Assembly (NCBI GenBank): GCA_027065695.1
Contig: JAMONP010000045.1
Span: 1-35,889, forward strand
DNA: 35,889 bases
Direction: 5' to 3'
DNA from: Desulfuromonadales bacterium
Lineage (GTDB): Bacteria > Desulfobacterota > Desulfuromonadia > Desulfuromonadales > BM103
Numbering within the stretch: position 1 is the stretch's first letter; every line of letters starts with the position of its first letter. Made by a program: the position numbers and the translations under genes. The notes beneath the pieces were generated by a model. That model saw only the letters and a list, made by a program, of their open reading frames with translations, did no database searches and was not told the origin of the DNA. Below are positions 2-8,425 of the stretch, piece by piece.

Positions 2-256
2 AGGTTTCTGGCGAGCTCCGATCCGATCCCCTCGGTTCCGATCGTGGTTCGCAAGGATACTCCCGTAGCATTGATTGAAGAGATAAAACGCGCCCTGCTG
101 GCAATTGATGCCACTGATCTGGCGATGGTCGAACGCATGCAGAACTGGGACCCTGAATTTCGCTACGGTTTTACTGAAGCGACTATCGATGACTATCAAG
201 AGATAATCGAGATTATGGAAGGCGTTCAGGAAGGCTGCGGTGTCCGATGCCACTAA
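2..256 (+). CDS. PhnD-type periplasmic oxyanion-binding protein, C-terminal fragment (ArrX/AioX-like)
   Basis: The reading frame is open from the left edge of the window to a TAA, so only about 84 C-terminal residues are present and the start lies outside. The sequence (SDPIPSVPIVVRKDTP near the start, then helices ending in an acidic tail) resembles the end of phosphate/phosphonate ABC-type substrate-binding proteins of the PhnD family. Its stop codon overlaps the start of a sensor kinase. A PhnD-like binding protein next to a kinase and regulator is the known arrangement of arsenic oxyanion sensing (AioX-AioS-AioR, ArxX-ArxS-ArxR). I infer that this protein binds arsenate, arsenite or phosphate in the periplasm and signals to the kinase rather than feeding a transporter, since no permease is present. 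Family assignment from a fragment is moderate; the ligand is a guess. Confidence 0.6.
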   Translation, partial: RFLASSDPIPSVPIVVRKDTPVALIEEIKRALLAIDATDLAMVERMQNWDPEFRYGFTEATIDDYQEIIEIMEGVQEGCGVRCH

Positions 257-1731
257 GCGTCTCGAGATGGCTGGGGATACGTGCCCGCTTCATGCTGCTT
301 GCAGTCATTCTCACACTGCTCTTCTCCGGGCTGTGGGGAGTCTGGACCTGGCAGCGTGAACGTGACCTGCTTTTCGACCGGGTTGACCGCCAGGGCGAAG
401 TGCTAGTCTCAACCATGGCGATTCCGATTATCAACGCACTGCTTTATGAAGAGCTGGGAATCATCGAGGAGGGTGGCCTGCTGGATAATTTCGTTGCTGA
501 TATTATGGCCAATGTGCAACTGCAACCGCTCTACGCCATTGTGATTGGCAAAGACGGTCGGGTGCTTGCCCATAATCGTTTGACCGAATATGGAGAAATA
601 TATACCGATCCACTCACCCTGACCGCCTTGGCCAGTGATAGGGTCATGCAAACCAGAACAAGCTTCAATAACCAGCCAGCAATTGATTTTTCGGCACCGC
701 TGGCGATCTCCGGCAAACGCTGGGGATGTCTACGGGTTGGCGTTTCGCTGCAACCACTGCAAAAAGAGCTGAACTCTCTGGCCAGCAGCATTCTAGGCTT
801 TGCCCTGGTATTCTCAGCCGGTGCCCTGGTGGTCTTTTTTGTTGCTGGACAGAAGCTCTCCAGACCGATTGTAGATCTTGCAGAAAGCATGGAGACGATG
901 GATGTTGAGAAGCCCATCTACCTGCCGCAGAAGGTGAGACGTGATGAAATCGGCCGTCTGGAGCGCAGCTTTCACGATCTGCTTGAGCGGTTGCGAAAAA
1001 GTGAGATGGCGCGCCGGAAATCAATGGAAAAGTTTGTTGATAGTGAGCGTTTTGCTGCGGTCGGCAAACTGGTCTCCGGGATTGCTCATGAGATCAACAA
1101 CCCGTTATCTGGCATAGAAGGAGCTCTTTATCATCTTCGCGAAGAGGAGGGAGGGCAATCGGCCAAGTATGTCAATGCCGCTGAGCAGGGTGTGGAACGT
1201 ATCGGTCGCATCGTGCGACAACTCCTCGATTTGTCGCGAGCTGATGCGTTGCTCGTGGAGACGGCTGACAGTGCGGAGTTTTTTGAGGAACTGGCTCTGT
1301 TTGCCAGGATGGCAATCAAGAAAAGAAACTGCAGTCTCCAAACTGAGGATGGTTATGCGCGTGGTGAGATCCTGATCGATCGAGACCGTATCCATCAAAC
1401 TCTACTCAATCTGGTACTCAATGCCGCCGATGCTGTTTCAACAAAGGATCAGGGTCTCATAAAGCTCGAAACCTTTTCGCATGATCAGGGCTATGCCATC
1501 AGGGTGCTTGATAACGGTCCGGGAATTACCGCTGAGGTTCAAAAACAGATTTTCGAGCCTTTTTTTACGACCAAGGACCCCGGTAAGGGGACCGGGATGG
1601 GACTGGCCATTGGACGGACGATTGCTGAAAAGCATGGCGGACGCCTGGAATGCAACTCTGTCTCTGGACAAGGAACTATATTTACTCTCTGGTTACCGCT
1701 CGACACTACTAAGAAAGGGGCTTCGGTATGA
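247..1731 (+). CDS. Membrane-bound sensor histidine kinase (ArrS-like)
   Basis: The 494-residue protein has a first membrane segment at about residues 13-35, a periplasmic sensing region of about 145 residues with a Cache/PAS-like stretch (LYAIVIGKDGRVLAHN), a second membrane segment at about 181-201 and then a HAMP linker. The phosphoacceptor is H281 in SGIAHEINNPL. The catalytic domain shows the N box (NLVLNAADAV), the G1 box (DNGPGI), FEPFFTTK and a G2 box (GTGMGLAI). The ATG overlaps the end of the upstream binding-protein gene and the stop overlaps the next start by ATGA, so the three genes are probably translationally coupled. It likely phosphorylates the NtrC-type regulator that follows, in response to the binding protein. 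The kinase class is certain; the oxyanion signal is inferred from neighbours. Confidence 0.9.
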   Translation: MPLSVSRWLGIRARFMLLAVILTLLFSGLWGVWTWQRERDLLFDRVDRQGEVLVSTMAIPIINALLYEELGIIEEGGLLDNFVADIMANVQLQPLYAIVIGKDGRVLAHNRLTEYGEIYTDPLTLTALASDRVMQTRTSFNNQPAIDFSAPLAISGKRWGCLRVGVSLQPLQKELNSLASSILGFALVFSAGALVVFFVAGQKLSRPIVDLAESMETMDVEKPIYLPQKVRRDEIGRLERSFHDLLERLRKSEMARRKSMEKFVDSERFAAVGKLVSGIAHEINNPLSGIEGALYHLREEEGGQSAKYVNAAEQGVERIGRIVRQLLDLSRADALLVETADSAEFFEELALFARMAIKKRNCSLQTEDGYARGEILIDRDRIHQTLLNLVLNAADAVSTKDQGLIKLETFSHDQGYAIRVLDNGPGITAEVQKQIFEPFFTTKDPGKGTGMGLAIGRTIAEKHGGRLECNSVSGQGTIFTLWLPLDTTKKGASV

Positions 1732-3083
1732 TCAAAAGAATCCTGCTTGTTGAAGATGATGACCTGCATCGCACCATGGTAACGGGAGCGCTTGAGAAGA
1801 ACGGCTATACTGTTAGTAGTGCCGAAAACGGTCAGGAAGCCATCCATGCGATGCAGGAAGAGACCTTTGTTGCAGCATTATTAGACATTCGGTTGCCGGA
1901 TGTCGATGGTTTTGAATTGTTAACCATGCTCAATGATGCTCAACCGGAATGTCATGCGGTCATGATGACTGGCGAAGCCTCAATCGAGTCAGCCGTACGC
2001 TCAATGCAGGGGGGGGCTTTCGATTACCTGGCCAAACCTTTTCGTACTGAATTGCTGTTGATGAAGCTGTCGCGTATTTTCGCCTGGCATGAACTAACGG
2101 AAGAGAACCGCATGCTACGGAGCGTAACGGCCCATGGCATGGTCGGGACCAGTCGAGTCCTGAAACATTTTCTGGAGAGTTTAAAGGGTGCTGCGGAATC
2201 AGAAGCAAGCGTTATGTTGCTTGGCGAAACCGGGACCGGTAAGGAGTTAGCAGCAGATTTTATCCATCAGAATGGTTTTAGAAACGATGGGCCGCTAATC
2301 AAGGTCAACTGTGGCGCAATTCCGGAGAGTCTGCTCGAAGTTGAACTTTTCGGCTGTATCAAAGGGGCCTTTACTGGCGCTGATCGCGCTCGACCTGGTG
2401 TTCTTGAACAAGCGCATGGCGGCACTTTGTTTCTCGATGAAATAGGTGAAATACCATCTACAATGCAGGTAAAGCTGTTGCGTGCCCTCCAGGTGCGGCA
2501 GGTGACCCGGATTGGTGGCCAAAAGCCATCGTCTGCCGATTTTCGTTTGGTTACAGCGACTCACCGTGATTTGGACGAATTGCGCCAGTCCGGCCAACTC
2601 CGCGACGACTTCTTTTTTCGGCTCAATGTGGTCCCCTTGACTGTCCCCCCCTTGCGAACCCGCCGGACCGATATCCCCCTTTTGATCAGTCACTTTGTTG
2701 AGCGTCATGCGATACGCCATCGTAAGGAACTGATCGAATTCACTCCGGAAGCCCTCGAATTGTTACAGAGGTATAACTTCCCAGGCAATGTCCGTGAACT
2801 GGAAAGCCTTGTAGAACGGCTTCAGGTGATGTCGCCAGGGGAACAGATCCTTCCTCGGCATCTTCCTGAGAACATCCGCCAGGCCGTGCAACCCAACGGA
2901 CGCACGGTTCAGTGTTTCCGAACCGAGTTGCCGTTGCGTGAGGCGGTCAGAGACTTCGAGACCCACTTCATTCAACATGTCCTTAATGAAGAGGGCGGCA
3001 ACCGCACCAAAACGGCCAAGCGTCTCGGTATTGCCAGGAAAACCCTTTGGGAGAAACTGGCGGACACTGTTACGGAAAAGTAG
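1728..3083 (+). CDS. NtrC-family sigma-54 response regulator (ArrR-like)
   Basis: The 451-residue protein has three domains. The receiver domain carries acidic residues near D10-D12, the phosphoacceptor D53 in LLDIRLPD, T81 and K103. The AAA+ domain has Walker A GETGTGKE at 166-173, the sigma-54 contact loop GAFTGA at 213-218 and Walker B GGTLFLDE at 231-238. The C-terminal Fis-type helix-turn-helix includes NRTKTAKRLGIARKTLW. GAFTGA is intact, so it should be a true activator of sigma-54 RNA polymerase. It overlaps the kinase gene by ATGA. A sigma-54 promoter and an inverted repeat lie in the gap between this gene and arrA, which makes the reductase operon its obvious target. The target assignment is inference; the protein class is clear. 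Confidence 0.92.
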   Translation: MIKRILLVEDDDLHRTMVTGALEKNGYTVSSAENGQEAIHAMQEETFVAALLDIRLPDVDGFELLTMLNDAQPECHAVMMTGEASIESAVRSMQGGAFDYLAKPFRTELLLMKLSRIFAWHELTEENRMLRSVTAHGMVGTSRVLKHFLESLKGAAESEASVMLLGETGTGKELAADFIHQNGFRNDGPLIKVNCGAIPESLLEVELFGCIKGAFTGADRARPGVLEQAHGGTLFLDEIGEIPSTMQVKLLRALQVRQVTRIGGQKPSSADFRLVTATHRDLDELRQSGQLRDDFFFRLNVVPLTVPPLRTRRTDIPLLISHFVERHAIRHRKELIEFTPEALELLQRYNFPGNVRELESLVERLQVMSPGEQILPRHLPENIRQAVQPNGRTVQCFRTELPLREAVRDFETHFIQHVLNEEGGNRTKTAKRLGIARKTLWEKLADTVTEK

Positions 3084-3148
3084 CAGTTTCAGTTAATCCT
3101 TCCAAGTAACTGACTTTCAAGACTAATTCTTGCTTATGACCCGATAGC

Positions 3149-3164
3149 GTTACTTTCTTGTAAC
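3149..3164. promoter_or_regulatory. Inverted repeat, candidate enhancer site for the NtrC-type regulator
   Basis: GTTAC and GTAAC arms are separated by six bases in the regulator-arrA gap. The centre is about 63 bases upstream of the -24 element, a usual distance for activators of sigma-54 promoters. The dyad is seen directly; binding by the upstream regulator is inferred. Lone half-sites (GTTAC at 3069 and GTAAC at 3106) occur further upstream. Confidence 0.4.
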
Positions 3165-3218
3165 AATCACACTGTTCCTTTCCAAATAAGAACCTATAGA
3201 AATCAAGTAGTTTGGTAT

Positions 3219-3233
3219 TGGCACGTCCTTTGC
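3219..3233 (+). promoter_or_regulatory. Sigma-54 (-24/-12) promoter of the arr operon
   Basis: The site reads TGGCACG-N4-TTGC, matching the sigma-54 consensus. The invariant GG (3220-3221) and GC (3232-3233) are exactly ten bases apart. The predicted transcript start is near 3245, leaving a leader of about 95 bases before the arrA ATG at 3342. It fits the sigma-54 activator encoded immediately upstream. Confidence 0.85.
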
Positions 3234-3341
3234 TATGGTTCCTTCGTGTGTAAGCTTTAGTGATTAGCTTAAGTTTCTTTTTCGGGGATCACATTTAAAG
3301 CAACAAAAGGTTTTCGACAAACCATTTAAGGGAGGATAAAC

Positions 3342-5909
3342 ATGAAGCTCACTCGCAGAGATTTCATCAAGAAGTCGGCCGCGACCAGTGGTGTCGTGTT
3401 GGCAGCCGGAACGGCTGCTCATGCCATGTCTGACAAACCAAAGACCAATGCCATGGCGGAAGCCACAGCTCAACCCAAGTCACTGGGTACGGGTGAATGG
3501 GTCGCCACCACCTGCCAGGGCTGTACTTCCTGGTGTTCCGCAGAGGCTTTAGTGCAAGCTGGCCGGGTTGTCAAGGTGCGTGGCAATCAGAACTCCAAGT
3601 CGGCTGATGGCTATCTCTGTCCGCGTGGACATTTGTCGATCGGCCAGATGTATGATCCAGACCGCATTAAGGTGCCGATGAAACGGACCAATCCGAAGAA
3701 GGGCCGCGACGAAGACCCAAAATTCGTACCAATTTCCTGGGATGAAGCCCTAAACACCATCGCGGACAAAATGATGGCGCTACGTAAGAGCCACGAAACC
3801 AATAAGTTCATGTTGATGCGCGGTCGTTATACCTATACCCGTGACGTCATTTATGATGCCATGCCGAAAATCTTCGGTTCACCCAATAATATTTCCCATA
3901 GCGCCATCTGCGCCGAAGCCGAAAAATTCGGCGCCTATTTCAGTCAGGGTTTCTGGGATTATCGCGACTACGATCTGGACAACACCAAGTATGTTCTGAT
4001 GTTCGGTGGCGACCCGATTGCTTCCAACCGCCAGGTTCCGGTTGCTATCCGCAAATGGGGCAAGGTACTCGACCAGGCGACGGTAGCCGTGGTTGACCCG
4101 CGCCTTTCTGCAACCGCTTCCAAGGCCCACGAATGGCTGCCGGTTGTTCCCGGTGAGGACGGTGCCCTGGCCGTGGCCATGGCTCACGTGATCCTGACAG
4201 AGGGACTCTGGAGTCACGAGTTTGTCGGCGGCTTCAAAGATGGTGTCAATCGCTTCAAAACGGGCAAGTCTGTCGATGAGACCACCTTTGAGGAAAAGCT
4301 TACCAACGGTGTGGTCAGGTGGTGGAACCTGGAACTGAACGATCGTACTCCCGAATGGGCTGAGCCAATCTGCGGTATCCCGGCAGATCAAATCCGCCGG
4401 GTCGCGACCGGTCTCGCCAAGGCGGCACCGAACTGCATGGTCTGGATGGCTCCGGGTGCCTCGATGCAGGTCCGTGGTGGCTATGCGGCCCTTGCTGCCC
4501 ACGCTCTCAACGGCCTGGTCGGCTGCATCGATACCGAAGGTGGCGTACTGGAGAAGATGAAAGCCCCCTACAGTCACATCCCGCTACACAAGGAGAAGTT
4601 CAAGCCTTACATTGATGAAATTTCTGCCAAGGGTCAGAAGAACAAGAAGATTGACCAGCGTGGCTACAAAGAGTTTCCGGCTCTAAAAAAGGGCAAGTCG
4701 GGCAAAGGTGTGGTGACCAATCGGGCTGCCGACGGCATCCTCAATGAGGACCCCTATGATATCAAGGTGGCTATCGGCTACTGGAACAACCTGGCCTTCT
4801 CCTGTACCGGTGCTGAGCGTTGGGAGCAAGCACTAAGTAAACTGCCTTTCTTCGCCCATATCACCACGAATGCGGCCGAGATGACCTGGTTTGCCGACAT
4901 CGTCCTGCCGGCAGCCTTCCACAAATTTGAACGCTGGGGGTTTTTGCCAAGCAAGGCGGCCCGTTACAGTTACGTTTCCATCGAGCAGCCAATGGTCAAG
5001 CCGCTCTGGGATGTGCGTATCGACGAGACCGAGATCCCCTACCTGATCGCCGAGAAACTCAAGGCCAAGGGGTTCTCGAACATGCTCGATTACTTCCAGA
5101 AAGAGTGTAAAGATCCTGAAACCGGTAAGTCACCGACCAGCAGCATGGAGTTTGCCCTCTATGTCACCAAGATTATGACCCAGAACTTCTGGGATCCGGC
5201 CAAGTACAAAGGTGGCGACAGGCTGGCCGGTTGGAAGGACTTCCGCAAGAAAGGTCTCTGGCAGTCTGACCCCTACCCGTTCAAGAAGAAATGGGGTAAG
5301 TGGAAGACCAAGACTCACAAGTTTGAATTCTATAGCGAGACTCTCAAGGAAGCCCTGCACAAGCACGCCGAAAAGCACAACACAGATATTGATGATATCC
5401 TGGCGACAGCCAAGTATACCGCCAAGGGTGAGCAGGCCTTCATTCCTCACTATGAACCGGCTTATCGACATGGTGACGCGAAGGAATTTCCTTACATTTT
5501 CCAGGAGTATCGTTCGCGCCTGAACCGTGAGGGGCGTTCCCAGAACCTGGCTGCCTATCATGAGTTCAAGAAAGTTGACCCCGGCGATGCCAGCTGGGAT
5601 GACGTGATCAAGATCAATCCGAAGGATGCCGCCAAGCTGGGCATCAAAGAGGGCGATAAGGTCAAGGTTACCTCACCGGTCGCTTCCATTGAAGGCAATG
5701 CCAACTTATACGAAGGGATTCGGCCCGGGACGATCAGCAAATGCTACGGTCAAGGGCATTGGGCCTATGGGCGAATCGCCTCGCTGAAATTCGGCAAGAC
5801 CCCGCGCGGTGGCAGCAACAACCACCTGATGCCGGCGGATTACGAACGCCTGAGCGGTTCGACTGCTCGTCATGGTGGTGTGACCCGGGTTAAGATCGTC
5901 AAACTGTAA
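3342..5909 (+). CDS. arrA: Respiratory arsenate reductase catalytic subunit (ArrA-like molybdoenzyme)
   Basis: This 855-residue DMSO-reductase-family protein has a Tat signal (TRRDFIKK) and so acts in the periplasm. A [4Fe-4S] motif follows: C58-x2-C-x3-C-x27-C93, the ArrA spacing. It carries RGRY at 160-163, which as I recall separates ArrA from the ArxA arsenite oxidases (GRGWG). Shifted by three residues, the active-site set I recall from Shewanella ANA-3 ArrA is all present: R162, Y163, H186, S187, K195, Y207 and the presumed Mo ligand C190. Length matches ArrA (about 850). The ATG follows GGAGG at a good distance. It would reduce arsenate to arsenite with electrons passed through ArrB. 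Other oxyanions such as antimonate, or polysulfide/thiosulfate-type substrates, cannot be excluded by reading alone. Confidence 0.8.
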   Translation: MKLTRRDFIKKSAATSGVVLAAGTAAHAMSDKPKTNAMAEATAQPKSLGTGEWVATTCQGCTSWCSAEALVQAGRVVKVRGNQNSKSADGYLCPRGHLSIGQMYDPDRIKVPMKRTNPKKGRDEDPKFVPISWDEALNTIADKMMALRKSHETNKFMLMRGRYTYTRDVIYDAMPKIFGSPNNISHSAICAEAEKFGAYFSQGFWDYRDYDLDNTKYVLMFGGDPIASNRQVPVAIRKWGKVLDQATVAVVDPRLSATASKAHEWLPVVPGEDGALAVAMAHVILTEGLWSHEFVGGFKDGVNRFKTGKSVDETTFEEKLTNGVVRWWNLELNDRTPEWAEPICGIPADQIRRVATGLAKAAPNCMVWMAPGASMQVRGGYAALAAHALNGLVGCIDTEGGVLEKMKAPYSHIPLHKEKFKPYIDEISAKGQKNKKIDQRGYKEFPALKKGKSGKGVVTNRAADGILNEDPYDIKVAIGYWNNLAFSCTGAERWEQALSKLPFFAHITTNAAEMTWFADIVLPAAFHKFERWGFLPSKAARYSYVSIEQPMVKPLWDVRIDETEIPYLIAEKLKAKGFSNMLDYFQKECKDPETGKSPTSSMEFALYVTKIMTQNFWDPAKYKGGDRLAGWKDFRKKGLWQSDPYPFKKKWGKWKTKTHKFEFYSETLKEALHKHAEKHNTDIDDILATAKYTAKGEQAFIPHYEPAYRHGDAKEFPYIFQEYRSRLNREGRSQNLAAYHEFKKVDPGDASWDDVIKINPKDAAKLGIKEGDKVKVTSPVASIEGNANLYEGIRPGTISKCYGQGHWAYGRIASLKFGKTPRGGSNNHLMPADYERLSGSTARHGGVTRVKIVKL

Positions 5910-5937
5910 GAATCGACTTTATCGATAGGAGGCGAAT

Positions 5938-6714
5938 ATGCCAAAAAAATACGGAATGGTCATTGATCTCCACCAGTGTGTCGGCTGCGGTGCCTGCGCA
6001 CTGGGATGCAAAAATGAAAACAACACCCAAGCCCGAGTTGGCGGACAGAGCTACAACTGGGCCGACTTCATCATGAAGACCGAAGGGACCTTCCCCAAAA
6101 CCACCTACACCCAGATGCCGGTTCTCTGTAATCACTGCACCGACGCCCCTTGCGTAGCTGAGTGCCCGGTGACGCCCAAGGCGATGTTCAAGGCCGACGA
6201 CAACACCACCCTGCACAACCAGGAGCGTTGCATTGGCTGCCGATCCTGCCAGATGGCCTGTCCTTACAGTGAAGAGGAGTTGGATGCATCCAGTATGAAG
6301 GGGGAGACCTACAGCGTTATCAGTTTTAACCCGTTTAAGAAGACGACTCAGCCCGAGTGGCACGACAAGTCCATTATGATTGCCGGGTGCACATCTTCCG
6401 GAGCTGCTGTCGCGGCAAAGACAAGCTCACTGCCACCCAGCGAAAACAGGTACAAATCAGGTGATTACCAACCGGTCCGCAAGGCGGGCGTAGTCGAGAA
6501 GTGCATCCTCTGTCACCATCGTACCACCAACGGACTGCTCCCGGCCTGTGTCGATGCCTGTCCGGCCAGTGCGCGTATCTTTGGCGATCTCAATGATCCG
6601 AACAGTGCGATTGCCAAGGCGCTTAAGAAGAACAAGGCGACACGCCTCAAGGTTGATGAGGGCACAGATCCAAATGTTTACTACATCCGGAACTATAATG
6701 GCCCCAAGACGTAA
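5938..6714 (+). CDS. arrB: Arsenate reductase iron-sulfur subunit (ArrB-like)
   Basis: The 258-residue ferredoxin-like protein resembles electron-transfer subunits of the DMSO reductase family. It has four cysteine groups for [4Fe-4S] clusters: C14/C17/C20/C24, C64/C67/C72/C76, C98/C101/C104/C108, and a C-terminal set in CILCHH plus ACVDACP. It has no signal peptide, so it is expected to cross the membrane with the Tat-targeted ArrA. An AGGAGG site precedes the ATG, 28 bases after arrA. It would pass electrons from a membrane quinol dehydrogenase or cytochrome to ArrA; neither is encoded here. A segment between the third and fourth cysteine groups (about residues 120-160) looks longer and less conserved than the rest. 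Assignment to ArrB rests on the pairing with ArrA. Confidence 0.82.
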   Translation: MPKKYGMVIDLHQCVGCGACALGCKNENNTQARVGGQSYNWADFIMKTEGTFPKTTYTQMPVLCNHCTDAPCVAECPVTPKAMFKADDNTTLHNQERCIGCRSCQMACPYSEEELDASSMKGETYSVISFNPFKKTTQPEWHDKSIMIAGCTSSGAAVAAKTSSLPPSENRYKSGDYQPVRKAGVVEKCILCHHRTTNGLLPACVDACPASARIFGDLNDPNSAIAKALKKNKATRLKVDEGTDPNVYYIRNYNGPKT

Positions 6715-6779
6715 TAACCTGATTGATTGTTCTCGGGGGCAGAGTCGATGACTCCGCCTTCGTTGTAACAGAGGAACGC

Positions 6780-7418
6780 ATGAACGATTCGCAGAACAGA
6801 AGTCATCTTCGTCATCTTGCCAGGGCCGACGTTTACCGGCTCTTGAGCGCCTGTTTCTACCAGCCAGAAGAAATCTTTCTCGAAGAGGAACTCTTTGGCC
6901 AACTTAAAACCGCCATGGCCAAGGTGAGCCCGCAAAGAGTTCCCGATGGGGCCTCTCTGGAAAGCTCGTTTCGAAAGACCGGTCTGGAGGCGTTGCAACT
7001 TGATTACAGCCGCCTTTTCCTGGGGCCTTTTGAGATTCCGGCCAAGCCCTATGGTTCGGTCTACCTTGACGGGGAAAAGGTCGTCATGGGGGATTCGACC
7101 TTGCAGGCTCTTGCATTGTACCGGGAGGCCAACTTCGAAATTGCGGGAGATTTCCGGGAAATGCCGGACCATGTGGCCGTGGAACTTGAGTTTCTCTACC
7201 TACTCTCCTTTCGCATCGGTCAGACAGAGGATCATGAAGATCAAGCCCGTCTGGGCGCATTGAAACGCAGGTTTCTCGAAGAACACTTAGGCCAGTGGAT
7301 TGGGACCTTCTCTGAAGCCATACAGCAGAGTGCCGAATCCGACTTTTACAAACAGCTTGCGGATTTGACGGAACAGTTTGTCCGAGAAGATCTACAGGAA
7401 CTTACTGAGGTCGTTTAA
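6780..7418 (+). CDS. arrD: TorD/NarJ-family chaperone for the molybdoenzyme (ArrD-like)
   Basis: The 212-residue helical protein has the look of TorD/DmsD/NarJ chaperones (ARADVYRLLSACFYQPEE near the N-terminus, DHVAVELEFLYLLS in the middle), which guard the Tat signal and help insert the molybdenum cofactor before export. I chose the ATG at 6780 because GAGGA lies just upstream. An in-frame TTG at 6723 would add 19 residues that do not fit the family start. It lies 65 bases after arrB and 5 bases before the next gene, so it should be co-transcribed. Its client is presumably ArrA. The family is fairly secure; client specificity is inferred from position. Confidence 0.8.
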   Translation: MNDSQNRSHLRHLARADVYRLLSACFYQPEEIFLEEELFGQLKTAMAKVSPQRVPDGASLESSFRKTGLEALQLDYSRLFLGPFEIPAKPYGSVYLDGEKVVMGDSTLQALALYREANFEIAGDFREMPDHVAVELEFLYLLSFRIGQTEDHEDQARLGALKRRFLEEHLGQWIGTFSEAIQQSAESDFYKQLADLTEQFVREDLQELTEVV

Positions 7419-7423
7419 ACGTA

Positions 7424-8425
7424 ATGATCCCGTCACTTGGCAGCCATGCCCTGAAAGCTTTGACACCGCAGACTGCAGTCACGGTCGACTGTTCGCGTTG
7501 TGTGCGACATCGCTGCAAGCGTAATGAATGTCGCAAATGTCTTGATATCTGTCCGGTCGGGGCGATCACATGGGAAGTGCACGGGCTGCAAGTTTCCTCC
7601 AATCTCTGCACACGCTGTCTGCGCTGCATGGCTGTCTGTCCGACAGCAGCGTTACAGTCCCCTGAGTTGTCTCTGCTGCAGGCTGTTGTCGATTTGGCTG
7701 CTCACCCAGAACCGGTGCTGGGTTGCCAGCTTCAAAGTGATACAGAGGCTCACGCAAGGTTTCCCTGTCTGGGAACTCTGGCAAACTCTGAGTCGATGCT
7801 GCTGTTCGCTTTGATCTTTGTCGAGGGGATACAAATTAACCTAATCTGCTGTCAAGACTGTCCGAGAGGACATATCCTTGAAGGAGTCCATACGGCCCAT
7901 GCTCGATTGGCAGAATTCATGCCCGATCATAAGGTAAAACTCGTCAGCGAGCAGAAAAACCTTAAATATCAGCTGGCTTCACTGTCAAGACGCGAGCTGT
8001 TTGGTTTCTTCCGTGAACGTTCAAAGCGAAGCACCATGGTTATGGTGGAGCGTCTCCAGGTAAATTCAAGGATACAATCATATGGCAGCAAGCAAGTCCC
8101 TCTGGTGCGTACCATGCTGCTCAAGGCGATGGAGACGAGGTCGGAAACACAACAACAATGGATATGCGGTCAGTTGTTCGGACAGGTTTCTTTTACCACG
8201 GATTGTACCATTTGCGGCGGTTGTGTCGGCGTCTGTCCCACTGGGGCTATTGGTCCAGAAGAAGACAAGTCCCCCCCGGTATTTGATCGAAACCTTTGCG
8301 TCGGTTGTGATACCTGTCAGGCTTTCTGCCGTAAGCAGGGGGTGCAACTAGCAGGCTCAAGCCAAAAACACGCCACATCTCTGGCCTTGAGCTATAAACG
8401 CCCATGGTCTGATCCGCTTTATTGA
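7424..8425 (+). CDS. Multi-cluster 4Fe-4S protein of the arr operon, function unknown
   Basis: The 333-residue soluble protein has no visible signal or membrane segment. Its N-terminal cysteines are C23, C26, C31, C36, C39, C43 and C62, C65, C68, C72 (the last followed by P). Its C-terminal pair of ferredoxin motifs is C261/C264/C267/C271 and C292/C295/C298/C302. Between them is a segment with further cysteines (C101, C115, C142, C143, C146) in contexts such as FPCLGTL and ICCQDCPRGH. It could hold up to four clusters plus a cysteine-rich centre. It follows the chaperone by five bases, so it belongs to the operon. Possible roles are electron supply on the cytoplasmic side or cofactor and cluster maturation of ArrA. 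I do not recognise a named family and offer no specific function. Confidence 0.8.
   Translation: MIPSLGSHALKALTPQTAVTVDCSRCVRHRCKRNECRKCLDICPVGAITWEVHGLQVSSNLCTRCLRCMAVCPTAALQSPELSLLQAVVDLAAHPEPVLGCQLQSDTEAHARFPCLGTLANSESMLLFALIFVEGIQINLICCQDCPRGHILEGVHTAHARLAEFMPDHKVKLVSEQKNLKYQLASLSRRELFGFFRERSKRSTMVMVERLQVNSRIQSYGSKQVPLVRTMLLKAMETRSETQQQWICGQLFGQVSFTTDCTICGGCVGVCPTGAIGPEEDKSPPVFDRNLCVGCDTCQAFCRKQGVQLAGSSQKHATSLALSYKRPWSDPLY

Follow-up and report, generated by a model that had tools for sequence, protein, structure and literature searches.

A 35,889-nucleotide stretch of DNA from a Desulfuromonadales bacterium (contig JAMONP010000045.1 of assembly GCA_027065695.1; the whole stretch is called the window here) carries genes for a periplasmic binding protein (X), a sensor histidine kinase (S) and a response regulator (R), followed by an operon of the arsenate reductase type (arr). 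Judged from sequence, the interval 3069-3234 between R and arrA is very probably the control region of this arr-like operon, where R would act from twin operators to drive a sigma-54 promoter.

Probable twin operators and a sigma-54 element upstream of arrA

The preliminary description of this DNA had pointed to a near-consensus sigma-54 element with ten bases between GG and GC, and to a dyad GTTAC-N6-GTAAC about 63 bases upstream of it. Both are present. The element reads TGGCACG-TCCT-TTGC at 3219-3233, with GG at 3220-3221, GC at 3232-3233 and ten bases between them, and a perfect copy of the dyad lies at 3149-3164, its centre 64 bp before the GG. The same description took the arrangement for the enhancer layout of the adjacent NtrC-type regulator. 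This is supported, R being an NtrC/AtoC-class activator with an intact GAFTGA motif and the genome encoding rpoN (one PF04552 match, 215 bits), and it needs correction in that there are two operators and not one and that R is part of an X-S-R module. With up to one mismatch allowed the dyad has three matches in the window against 0.26 expected, and one of the others is the distal operator at 3069-3084, exactly 80 bp from the proximal one. The proximal dyad fits the AioR site form GTT-N10-AAC; the distal dyad fits it only with AGC replacing AAC.

The distal operator is located at the 3' end of the R gene, where the window reads GTT-ACG-GAA-AAG-TAG-C and the nearest relative, locus L038, reads GTT-ACA-AAA-ACG-TAA-C. 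The C-terminus of R changes from VTEK to VTKT, yet both arms of the dyad are retained, the stop codon being part of the right half-site. An operator fused with the R stop codon is also found in L114 and L127. Comparison of these sequences suggests that the overlap of operator and stop codon is a small direct sign of selection on the distal dyad.

The exact sigma-54 pattern occurs only once in the window, and looser matches with up to two mismatches (11 versus 14.4 expected) are noise. The consensus TGGCACNNNNNTTGCW occurs at 11 places in the 3.39-Mb genome, versus none for the reversed control, and among these 11 the arr place alone has dyads (matrix score at least 8) within 400 bp upstream, two of them, at -70 and -150. 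The combination of dyads and a consensus sigma-54 element is thus far beyond chance in this genome. Relaxed dyads are found at 12 places in the genome, two of which are the arr pair; the other ten are all crossed by an open frame of at least 184 codons, with no sigma-54 element scoring at least 14 within 250 bp. The -24/-12 element and the proximal dyad are identical in L038, and a scan of 2900-3500 found no sigma-70-type match.

Elsewhere in the window's genome a high-scoring dyad, GCTACCAAAAGGTAAC (L067 1501-1516; G000:C38:24195-24210), stands before a frame that appears oxidoreductase-like by eye, with no strong sigma-54 element; it is probably there by chance. The consensus for IHF binding is WATCARNNNNTTR, and a candidate IHF site between operator and promoter was rejected, being near chance (shuffle P 0.13) and shown by only scattered relatives.

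Features of the window around the arr-like operon
Feature	Position	Strand	Remarks
X gene, PhnD/PtxB-type periplasmic binding protein, C-terminal 84 codons + stop	2..256	+	frame open from base 2
Sensor histidine kinase (S), 494 aa; single-Cache sensor, HAMP, HisKA, H-box IAHEINNP	247..1731	+	
AtoC/NtrC-class response regulator (R), 451 aa; receiver, AAA+ sigma-54 activation domain, Fis-type HTH ending ARKTLWEK	1728..3083	+	
Distal operator GTTACGGAAAAGTAGC	3069..3084		spans TAG stop of R gene; equivalent site in relatives
Proximal operator GTTACTTTCTTGTAAC, dyad GTTAC-TTTCTT-GTAAC	3149..3164		perfect dyad; mid-intergenic
IHF-like sequence AATCAAGTAGTTT	3201..3213	+	one mismatch to WATCARNNNNTTR; weak
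Sigma-54 -24/-12 promoter element TGGCACGTCCTTTGCT	3219..3234	+	exact consensus; kept in L038
Predicted transcription start	3245 (C) or 3246 (G)	+	arithmetic, C at 3233 taken as -12
arrA-like molybdopterin oxidoreductase catalytic subunit, 855 aa	3342..5909	+	
arrB-like iron-sulphur subunit, 258 aa	5938..6714	+	245 bits to NF041715, cut-off 450
TorD/NarJ-like assembly chaperone (arrD-like)	6723..7418	+	
Multi-[4Fe-4S] ferredoxin-like protein, probably in arr operon	7424..8425	+	homologue after chaperone in many relatives

Conservation of the dyads and their association with R

Relatives were compared over 22 regions lying 3' of an R-family gene with a same-strand reductase operon (20 arrA, 2 TtrA-like). 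X is found upstream of S in 22/22, as its C-terminus only where the stretch starts inside X (the window, L041, L106, L113). Left out were L052, L061 and L064, where there is no arrA start, and L125 (44% R); L018-L025 and L110 duplicate counted loci, and L118 (G356) is near-identical to L117/L127. Flank lengths vary, with only 688 bp upstream in L105, and the distance from R to arrA reaches 4.6 kb in L131 and about 1.1-1.2 kb in L106 and L113. A small frame with haem-binding CxxCH motifs (by eye) lies between R and arrA in L048, L051, L062 and L063.

An unsupervised count of exact 5-mer inverted repeats with gaps of 0-20 placed GTTAC-N6-GTAAC at the top, with 9 of the 22 regions, while no pattern exceeded 3 in 200 shuffled sets. 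These nine (the window, L038, L048, L051, L063, L109, L111, L114, L127) span six of the seven regulator clusters. The symmetric matrix derived from 34 sites reads GTTACC-N4-GGTAAC, and its best match lies above the 99% shuffled level in 21/22 regions. The matrix was trained on these same regions, a circularity from which the inverted-repeat count and the whole-genome pair scans described below are free. The expectation that the dyad should recur upstream of relatives' arr operons was borne out: it is identical in L038 and recurs where R is only 41-60% identical.

Dyad pairs 78-81 bp apart were found in 11 of the 22 regions, both members being above the 99% null in eight and one member being weak in L103, L108 and L109. 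The spacing is 80 bp in the window, L040, L103, L108, L112, L109 and L115, 78 in L038, 81 in L041 and 79 in both L107 and L114; in L111 the second site, at 80, is degenerate and everted. Apart from L127, L128, L051 and L063, whose other spacings are given below, the remaining regions show one clear site, or a second one only at a distance. In 21 comparisons among seven of the pair regions, identity is 32% for the 64-bp spacer versus 73% for the dyads. The dyads were selected by the matrix, and the telling part is therefore that the distance is kept while the spacer sequence is not.

The sigma-54 element scores at least 13.5 in 16/22 regions (95% null 13.0), and 12 of the 22 are above the 99% null of 14.0. 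Measured from the proximal dyad, fifteen of these 16 elements stand 68-71, 89-94 or 103-104 bp downstream, and that of L127 stands at 168. In genome G049, where arrA is 4.6 kb from R, a strong dyad lies exactly 150 bp before the sigma-54 element, which is the distal position. A Rayleigh test for helical phasing of the dyad-to-promoter distance on 15/17 loci gave P 0.009 at 10.5 bp and <0.0002 at 11 bp; such phasing is suggestive only.

A dyad above threshold is present at 21 of the 22 loci where R is the neighbouring gene on the same strand, versus 1 of 13 arrA loci whose fetched flank shows no such R (Fisher P 2e-7, related loci being treated as independent). The one exception is L058, and two of the 13, L050 and L054, lie near an X of a cysteine type (see below) and may depend on an R of a different kind. 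L116/L039 have an ArrA 87% identical to that of the window, a fetched flank without R, and neither dyad nor sigma-54 element. Six arrA loci with a distant or divergent R were kept outside this comparison. Among these six, dyads were found in all of L046, L047 and L049, where R is divergent (with X also in L046 and L047), and in none of L044, L053 and L060; dyads are present at three betaproteobacterial loci whose regulator gene is divergent, and in two cases a sigma-54 element lies 71 bp away. At L058 itself (6001-7515, a Nitrospira metagenome-assembled genome) arrA matches query residues 1-291 and 637-855 in directly adjacent DNA, as though about 345 residues were missing, the arrB match is partial too, and dyads are present upstream. 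This arrA gap is either a deletion or an assembly fault.

Whole-genome scans used the strict pair pattern GTTAC-N6-GTARC-N(61-66)-GYTAC-N6-GTARC, which misses arr loci with one imperfect half-site. Across 136 genomes of the order, six match (G000, G009, G040, G045, G057, G134), at one place each, and the control has none. All six pairs sit between an X-S-R regulator and its operon, five times arr and once TtrA-like. In a 395-genome sample of the phylum, with the spacing set to N(53-66), seven match and again none in the control: G000, G045 and G057 had been seen already, G156 and G356 are TtrA-like, and G487 and G506, of another family of the phylum, are new. The pairs of the latter two (L144 4090-4187 and L145 4290-4386; 82 and 81 bp) precede a TGGTACG-type sigma-54 element by 117 and 115 bp. 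Downstream of the element, G506 has universal-stress-protein-like, NarK-like and NarG-like frames. The element of G487 faces cytochrome-like and NarG-like frames, the first of which begins about 0.9 kb beyond it, and a NarK-like frame lies on its opposite side. X-S-R and the same operators precede TtrB/TtrA-like operons at L114 2796-6727 (minus strand) and L127 4142-8104; the TtrA-like subunits of these loci score 488-495 bits, below the NCBIfam cut-off for TtrA, which is 1750.

Genes of the cluster, the regulator and the X protein

The contig begins within the X gene, whose 3' end overlaps the kinase start. The residues coded by 2-253 align with residues 212-295 of the L038 X protein at 76% identity; the latter is complete (2030-2914) and matches the Pfam family Phosphonate-bd, PF12974. 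Since the window opens inside X, the regulatory cluster is X-S-R and not a two-component system, and the order X-S-R-arrABD is that of an AioXSR-type three-component module, with X, S and R beside the enzyme. The ArrA-like protein carries TRRDFIKK, which we take to be a Tat-type leader motif. It scores 1152 bits over its full length with NCBIfam NF041714, its best family by far, and 1016 bits with the solved ArrA structure (PDB 6cz7). An Rfam scan of the window and L038 gave no match. At L037 and L039/L116, ArrA is 87-89% identical to that of the window, with a regulator of 51% identity (L037) or none found in the fetched flank (L039). From these loci the arr enzyme and the regulator seem to have separate histories.

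R has the features of the AtoC/NtrC class: a receiver with D54, Walker A GETGTGKE at 166, GAFTGA at 213 and a Fis-type HTH (helix-turn-helix), the domains being recognised by Pfam. Identity with the published CitB/FixJ-type ArrR of Chrysiogenes and Firmicutes, which has no AAA+ domain and a FixJ-like site, was ruled out by the AAA+ domain of R. The GAFTGA loop contacts sigma-54. It is changed to GVSPTA in L051 and to GSTPTA in L063, and in both the sigma-54 element is missing; loop and promoter have gone together there, which counts as one event because L051 and L063 form one lineage. The recognition-helix motif RKxLWE is found in 23 of 24 aligned X-S-R regulators (the exception is L128, with RETLWKK) and in 5 of 14 other aligned activators, being absent from 9/14. 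In G487 and G506, which have the operator pair and no arr match, exactly one of the five best activators of each carries SRKTLWEK (L123, L148). Plasmid searches for AioR and AioX as yardsticks gave, among the matches listed, AtoC/ZraR-like and PhnD-like proteins.

The arsenic-oxyanion pocket of AioX includes a ligand-linking residue, Cys106, according to the accessible text of PMC5908839. Glycine occupies this position, mostly within a SLGDVTF motif, in 17/17 X proteins of the present type that cover it, which sets them apart from the AioX subfamily. The equivalents of Tyr131, Ser161, Ser163 and His192 are retained; the pocket positions were mapped by reading the alignment, the assignment of Asp210 being uncertain and Tyr88 lying outside the comparison. 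The window fragment of X is without the pocket region, so the Gly-type call rests on L038 and the others. At other arr loci (L046, L047, L050, L053, L054, L060) the neighbouring X has cysteine there, and the X proteins would thus appear to form two sensor classes, Gly-type and Cys-type. Of nine loci checked for autoregulation of X, eight had no dyad scoring at least 11 in front of the X gene. The sole sign of it among the nine is in L048, where a high-scoring dyad, GTTACCTTGAGGTAAC, lies near 1116, some 54 bp before X (start estimated).

Proposed mechanism, alternatives and known systems

Starting from the elements found, their conservation and spacing, their co-occurrence with R and the intact sigma-54 activator domain of R, we infer the following chain of events. 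Periplasmic X would bind an oxyanion, possibly arsenate, and signal through the kinase S, which would phosphorylate the AtoC-type R. R-phosphate dimers would then occupy the two GTTACC-N4-GGTAAC-type operators 80 bp apart and the AAA+ ring would assemble. DNA looping would bring R to the closed complex of sigma-54 RNA polymerase at TGGCACGTCCTTTGC, with ATP-driven opening, and arrABD would be switched on, in an RpoN-dependent manner, when its electron acceptor is present.

Several observations weigh against this interpretation. Taken singly, the dyad is no rarer genome-wide than its control (4 versus 7 exact, 12 versus 13 relaxed), and an argument from a single dyad therefore fails standing alone. 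The dyads are 71 and 70 bp apart in L127 and L128 and, within the region 5400-6000 of both L051 and L063, 132 bp apart; L131 has no dyad within the first 450 bp after R, its distant arrA carrying its own dyad and sigma-54 element. The sigma-54 element is weak in L103 and absent in L048, L051, L062 and L063 despite their dyads, the gene order being retained in these four; sigma-70 promoters sought in L051, L063 and L048 gave matches near chance. L048 and L062 keep GAYTGA without the element, and loop and promoter are therefore not strictly coupled. The proximal dyad used for the promoter distance is itself weak in L108, L109 and L111, and with cluster representatives the helical phasing becomes marginal (P 0.034, 0.027, 0.068 or 0.012 by choice). 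The 1152 bits of the ArrA-like protein fall below the NF041714 equivalog cut-off of 1600, so "arsenate reductase" is the best name for the enzyme and not a proven one. The weakest step of the model is arsenate as the putative signal, because the Gly-type X proteins are without the AioX-family cysteine.

The dyads could instead act as RNA hairpins downstream of the R gene, terminating transcription weakly or stabilising the RNA, with the sigma-54 element alone being regulatory. Such a role would suit the distal dyad where it coincides with the stop codon of R (the window, L038, L114 and L127), and also the dyad of L048, which is followed by a T run and scored as terminator-like. In the window, however, no T run follows either dyad, no plus-strand terminator was called and the proximal dyad is mid-intergenic. 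Moreover it is the sequence that is kept and not just the pairing (the top bases of GTTAC have log-odds of 1.6-1.9 per half-site position in the 34-site matrix), the two copies recur at 80 bp, and the dyads are mostly missing where R is missing, making hairpins a highly improbable explanation. Binding of the dyads, and activation of the sigma-54 promoter, by some regulator other than the neighbouring R is also very unlikely. Candidates are many, with at least 26-30 activator matches per genome (58 genomes), and the nar promoters of G487 and G506 have the same dyad pair with no relative of X, S or R in the 9 kb fetched. Against this, the dyads follow the adjacent R, the RKxLWE helix is nearly general among X-S-R regulators and lacking in most other activators, and G487 and G506 each have an activator with SRKTLWEK among their five best.

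The least probable of the alternatives is that the -24/-12 element is a chance match or a relic, with arr transcripts arising by read-through of X-S-R or at some promoter that escaped recognition. X-S-R and arr are indeed codirectional, and the four related regions that are without the element keep their gene order. This has to be set against the identity of the element in L038, its consensus type in 16 of the 22 regions with a restricted dyad distance in 15, the count of 11 versus 0 for the consensus genome-wide and the lack of any sigma-70-type match in 2900-3500.

We therefore favour control of the arr-like operon by R from the twin operators. The operator pair can serve as a sequence tag: within the genomes searched it fell only at respiratory-reductase loci, and with it arr regulation in uncultured relatives becomes directly testable. 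It also raises a mechanistic question, namely the reason for 80 bp between two activator dimers; by inference, this spacing argues against directly adjacent dimers on straight DNA. One may speculate, tentatively and with the odds rather against it, that the ~80-bp twin operator and the -24/-12 element represent a portable cassette for respiratory molybdoenzymes across Thermodesulfobacteriota, read by SRKxLWEK activators and driving arr, TtrA-like (G045, G156) and nar (G487, G506) operons, that the 80 bp correspond to DNA wrapped round the activator ring, and that Gly-type X senses an oxyanion other than that of AioX. If this speculation were correct, TtrA-like enzymes under X-S-R could be unrecognised arsenic or antimony oxyanion reductases.

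Among the literature matches listed (titles and abstract openings, with few subscription journals), no sigma-54 promoter or twin operator was described for arr. At glnAp2 and enhancers like it, NtrC binds two palindromic sites upstream of a -24/-12 promoter, forms an ATPase ring and acts by looping. The paired palindromic sites before a -24/-12 promoter are alike here, but they are 80 bp apart, unlike the two strong NtrC sites at ~32 bp. Pseudomonas CbrB offers similar half-sites, TGTTAC and GTAACA, upstream of sigma-54 promoters, but its subsites are described as non-palindromic with a spacing of 12-16 nt in the accessible text of PMC6296734.

As far as the accessible text of Badilla et al. 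(PMC5908839) goes, arrXSR is present in Firmicutes, Epsilonproteobacteria and Chrysiogenetes, ArrR being of the AtoC type in Epsilonproteobacteria and of the CitB/FixJ type in C. arsenatis, where ArrX binds arsenate with a Kd of 1 uM and no promoter was detectable upstream of arrAB. The three-gene logic beside arrAB is shared with C. arsenatis, whereas R of the window belongs to the sigma-54 activators and both promoter and operators are evident. Compared with C. arsenatis, whose arrAB has no findable promoter by that account, sigma-54 control of arr would be new.

The closest likeness is with AioXSR/aioBA of Agrobacterium, Rhizobium NT-26 and Herminiimonas, which also has X-S-R beside the enzyme, an AtoC-type R, a sigma-54 promoter and a palindrome of the GTT-N10-AAC class. 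In the accessible parts of the sources, the AioR site is given as GTTN10AAC with the footprint GTTCGGATTTCCGAAC (PMC5335332), and the arsenite oxidase genes of H. arsenicoxydans need rpoN and have upstream TGGCACGCAGTTTGC, which is nearly identical to the window element (PMC2848651). Unlike AioXSR, the module of the window controls an enzyme of the arsenate reductase type, that is of the reverse reaction, its half-site is GTTACC and not the GTTCGG of AioR, its X proteins have glycine in place of Cys106 and its operators are two, 80 bp apart. Taken together, these comparisons suggest that control of arr by a sigma-54 promoter and an AtoC-type R, through twin operators at a fixed spacing, is a further form of the AioXSR kind and not a new kind, because GTT-N10-AAC is already the published AioR site class.
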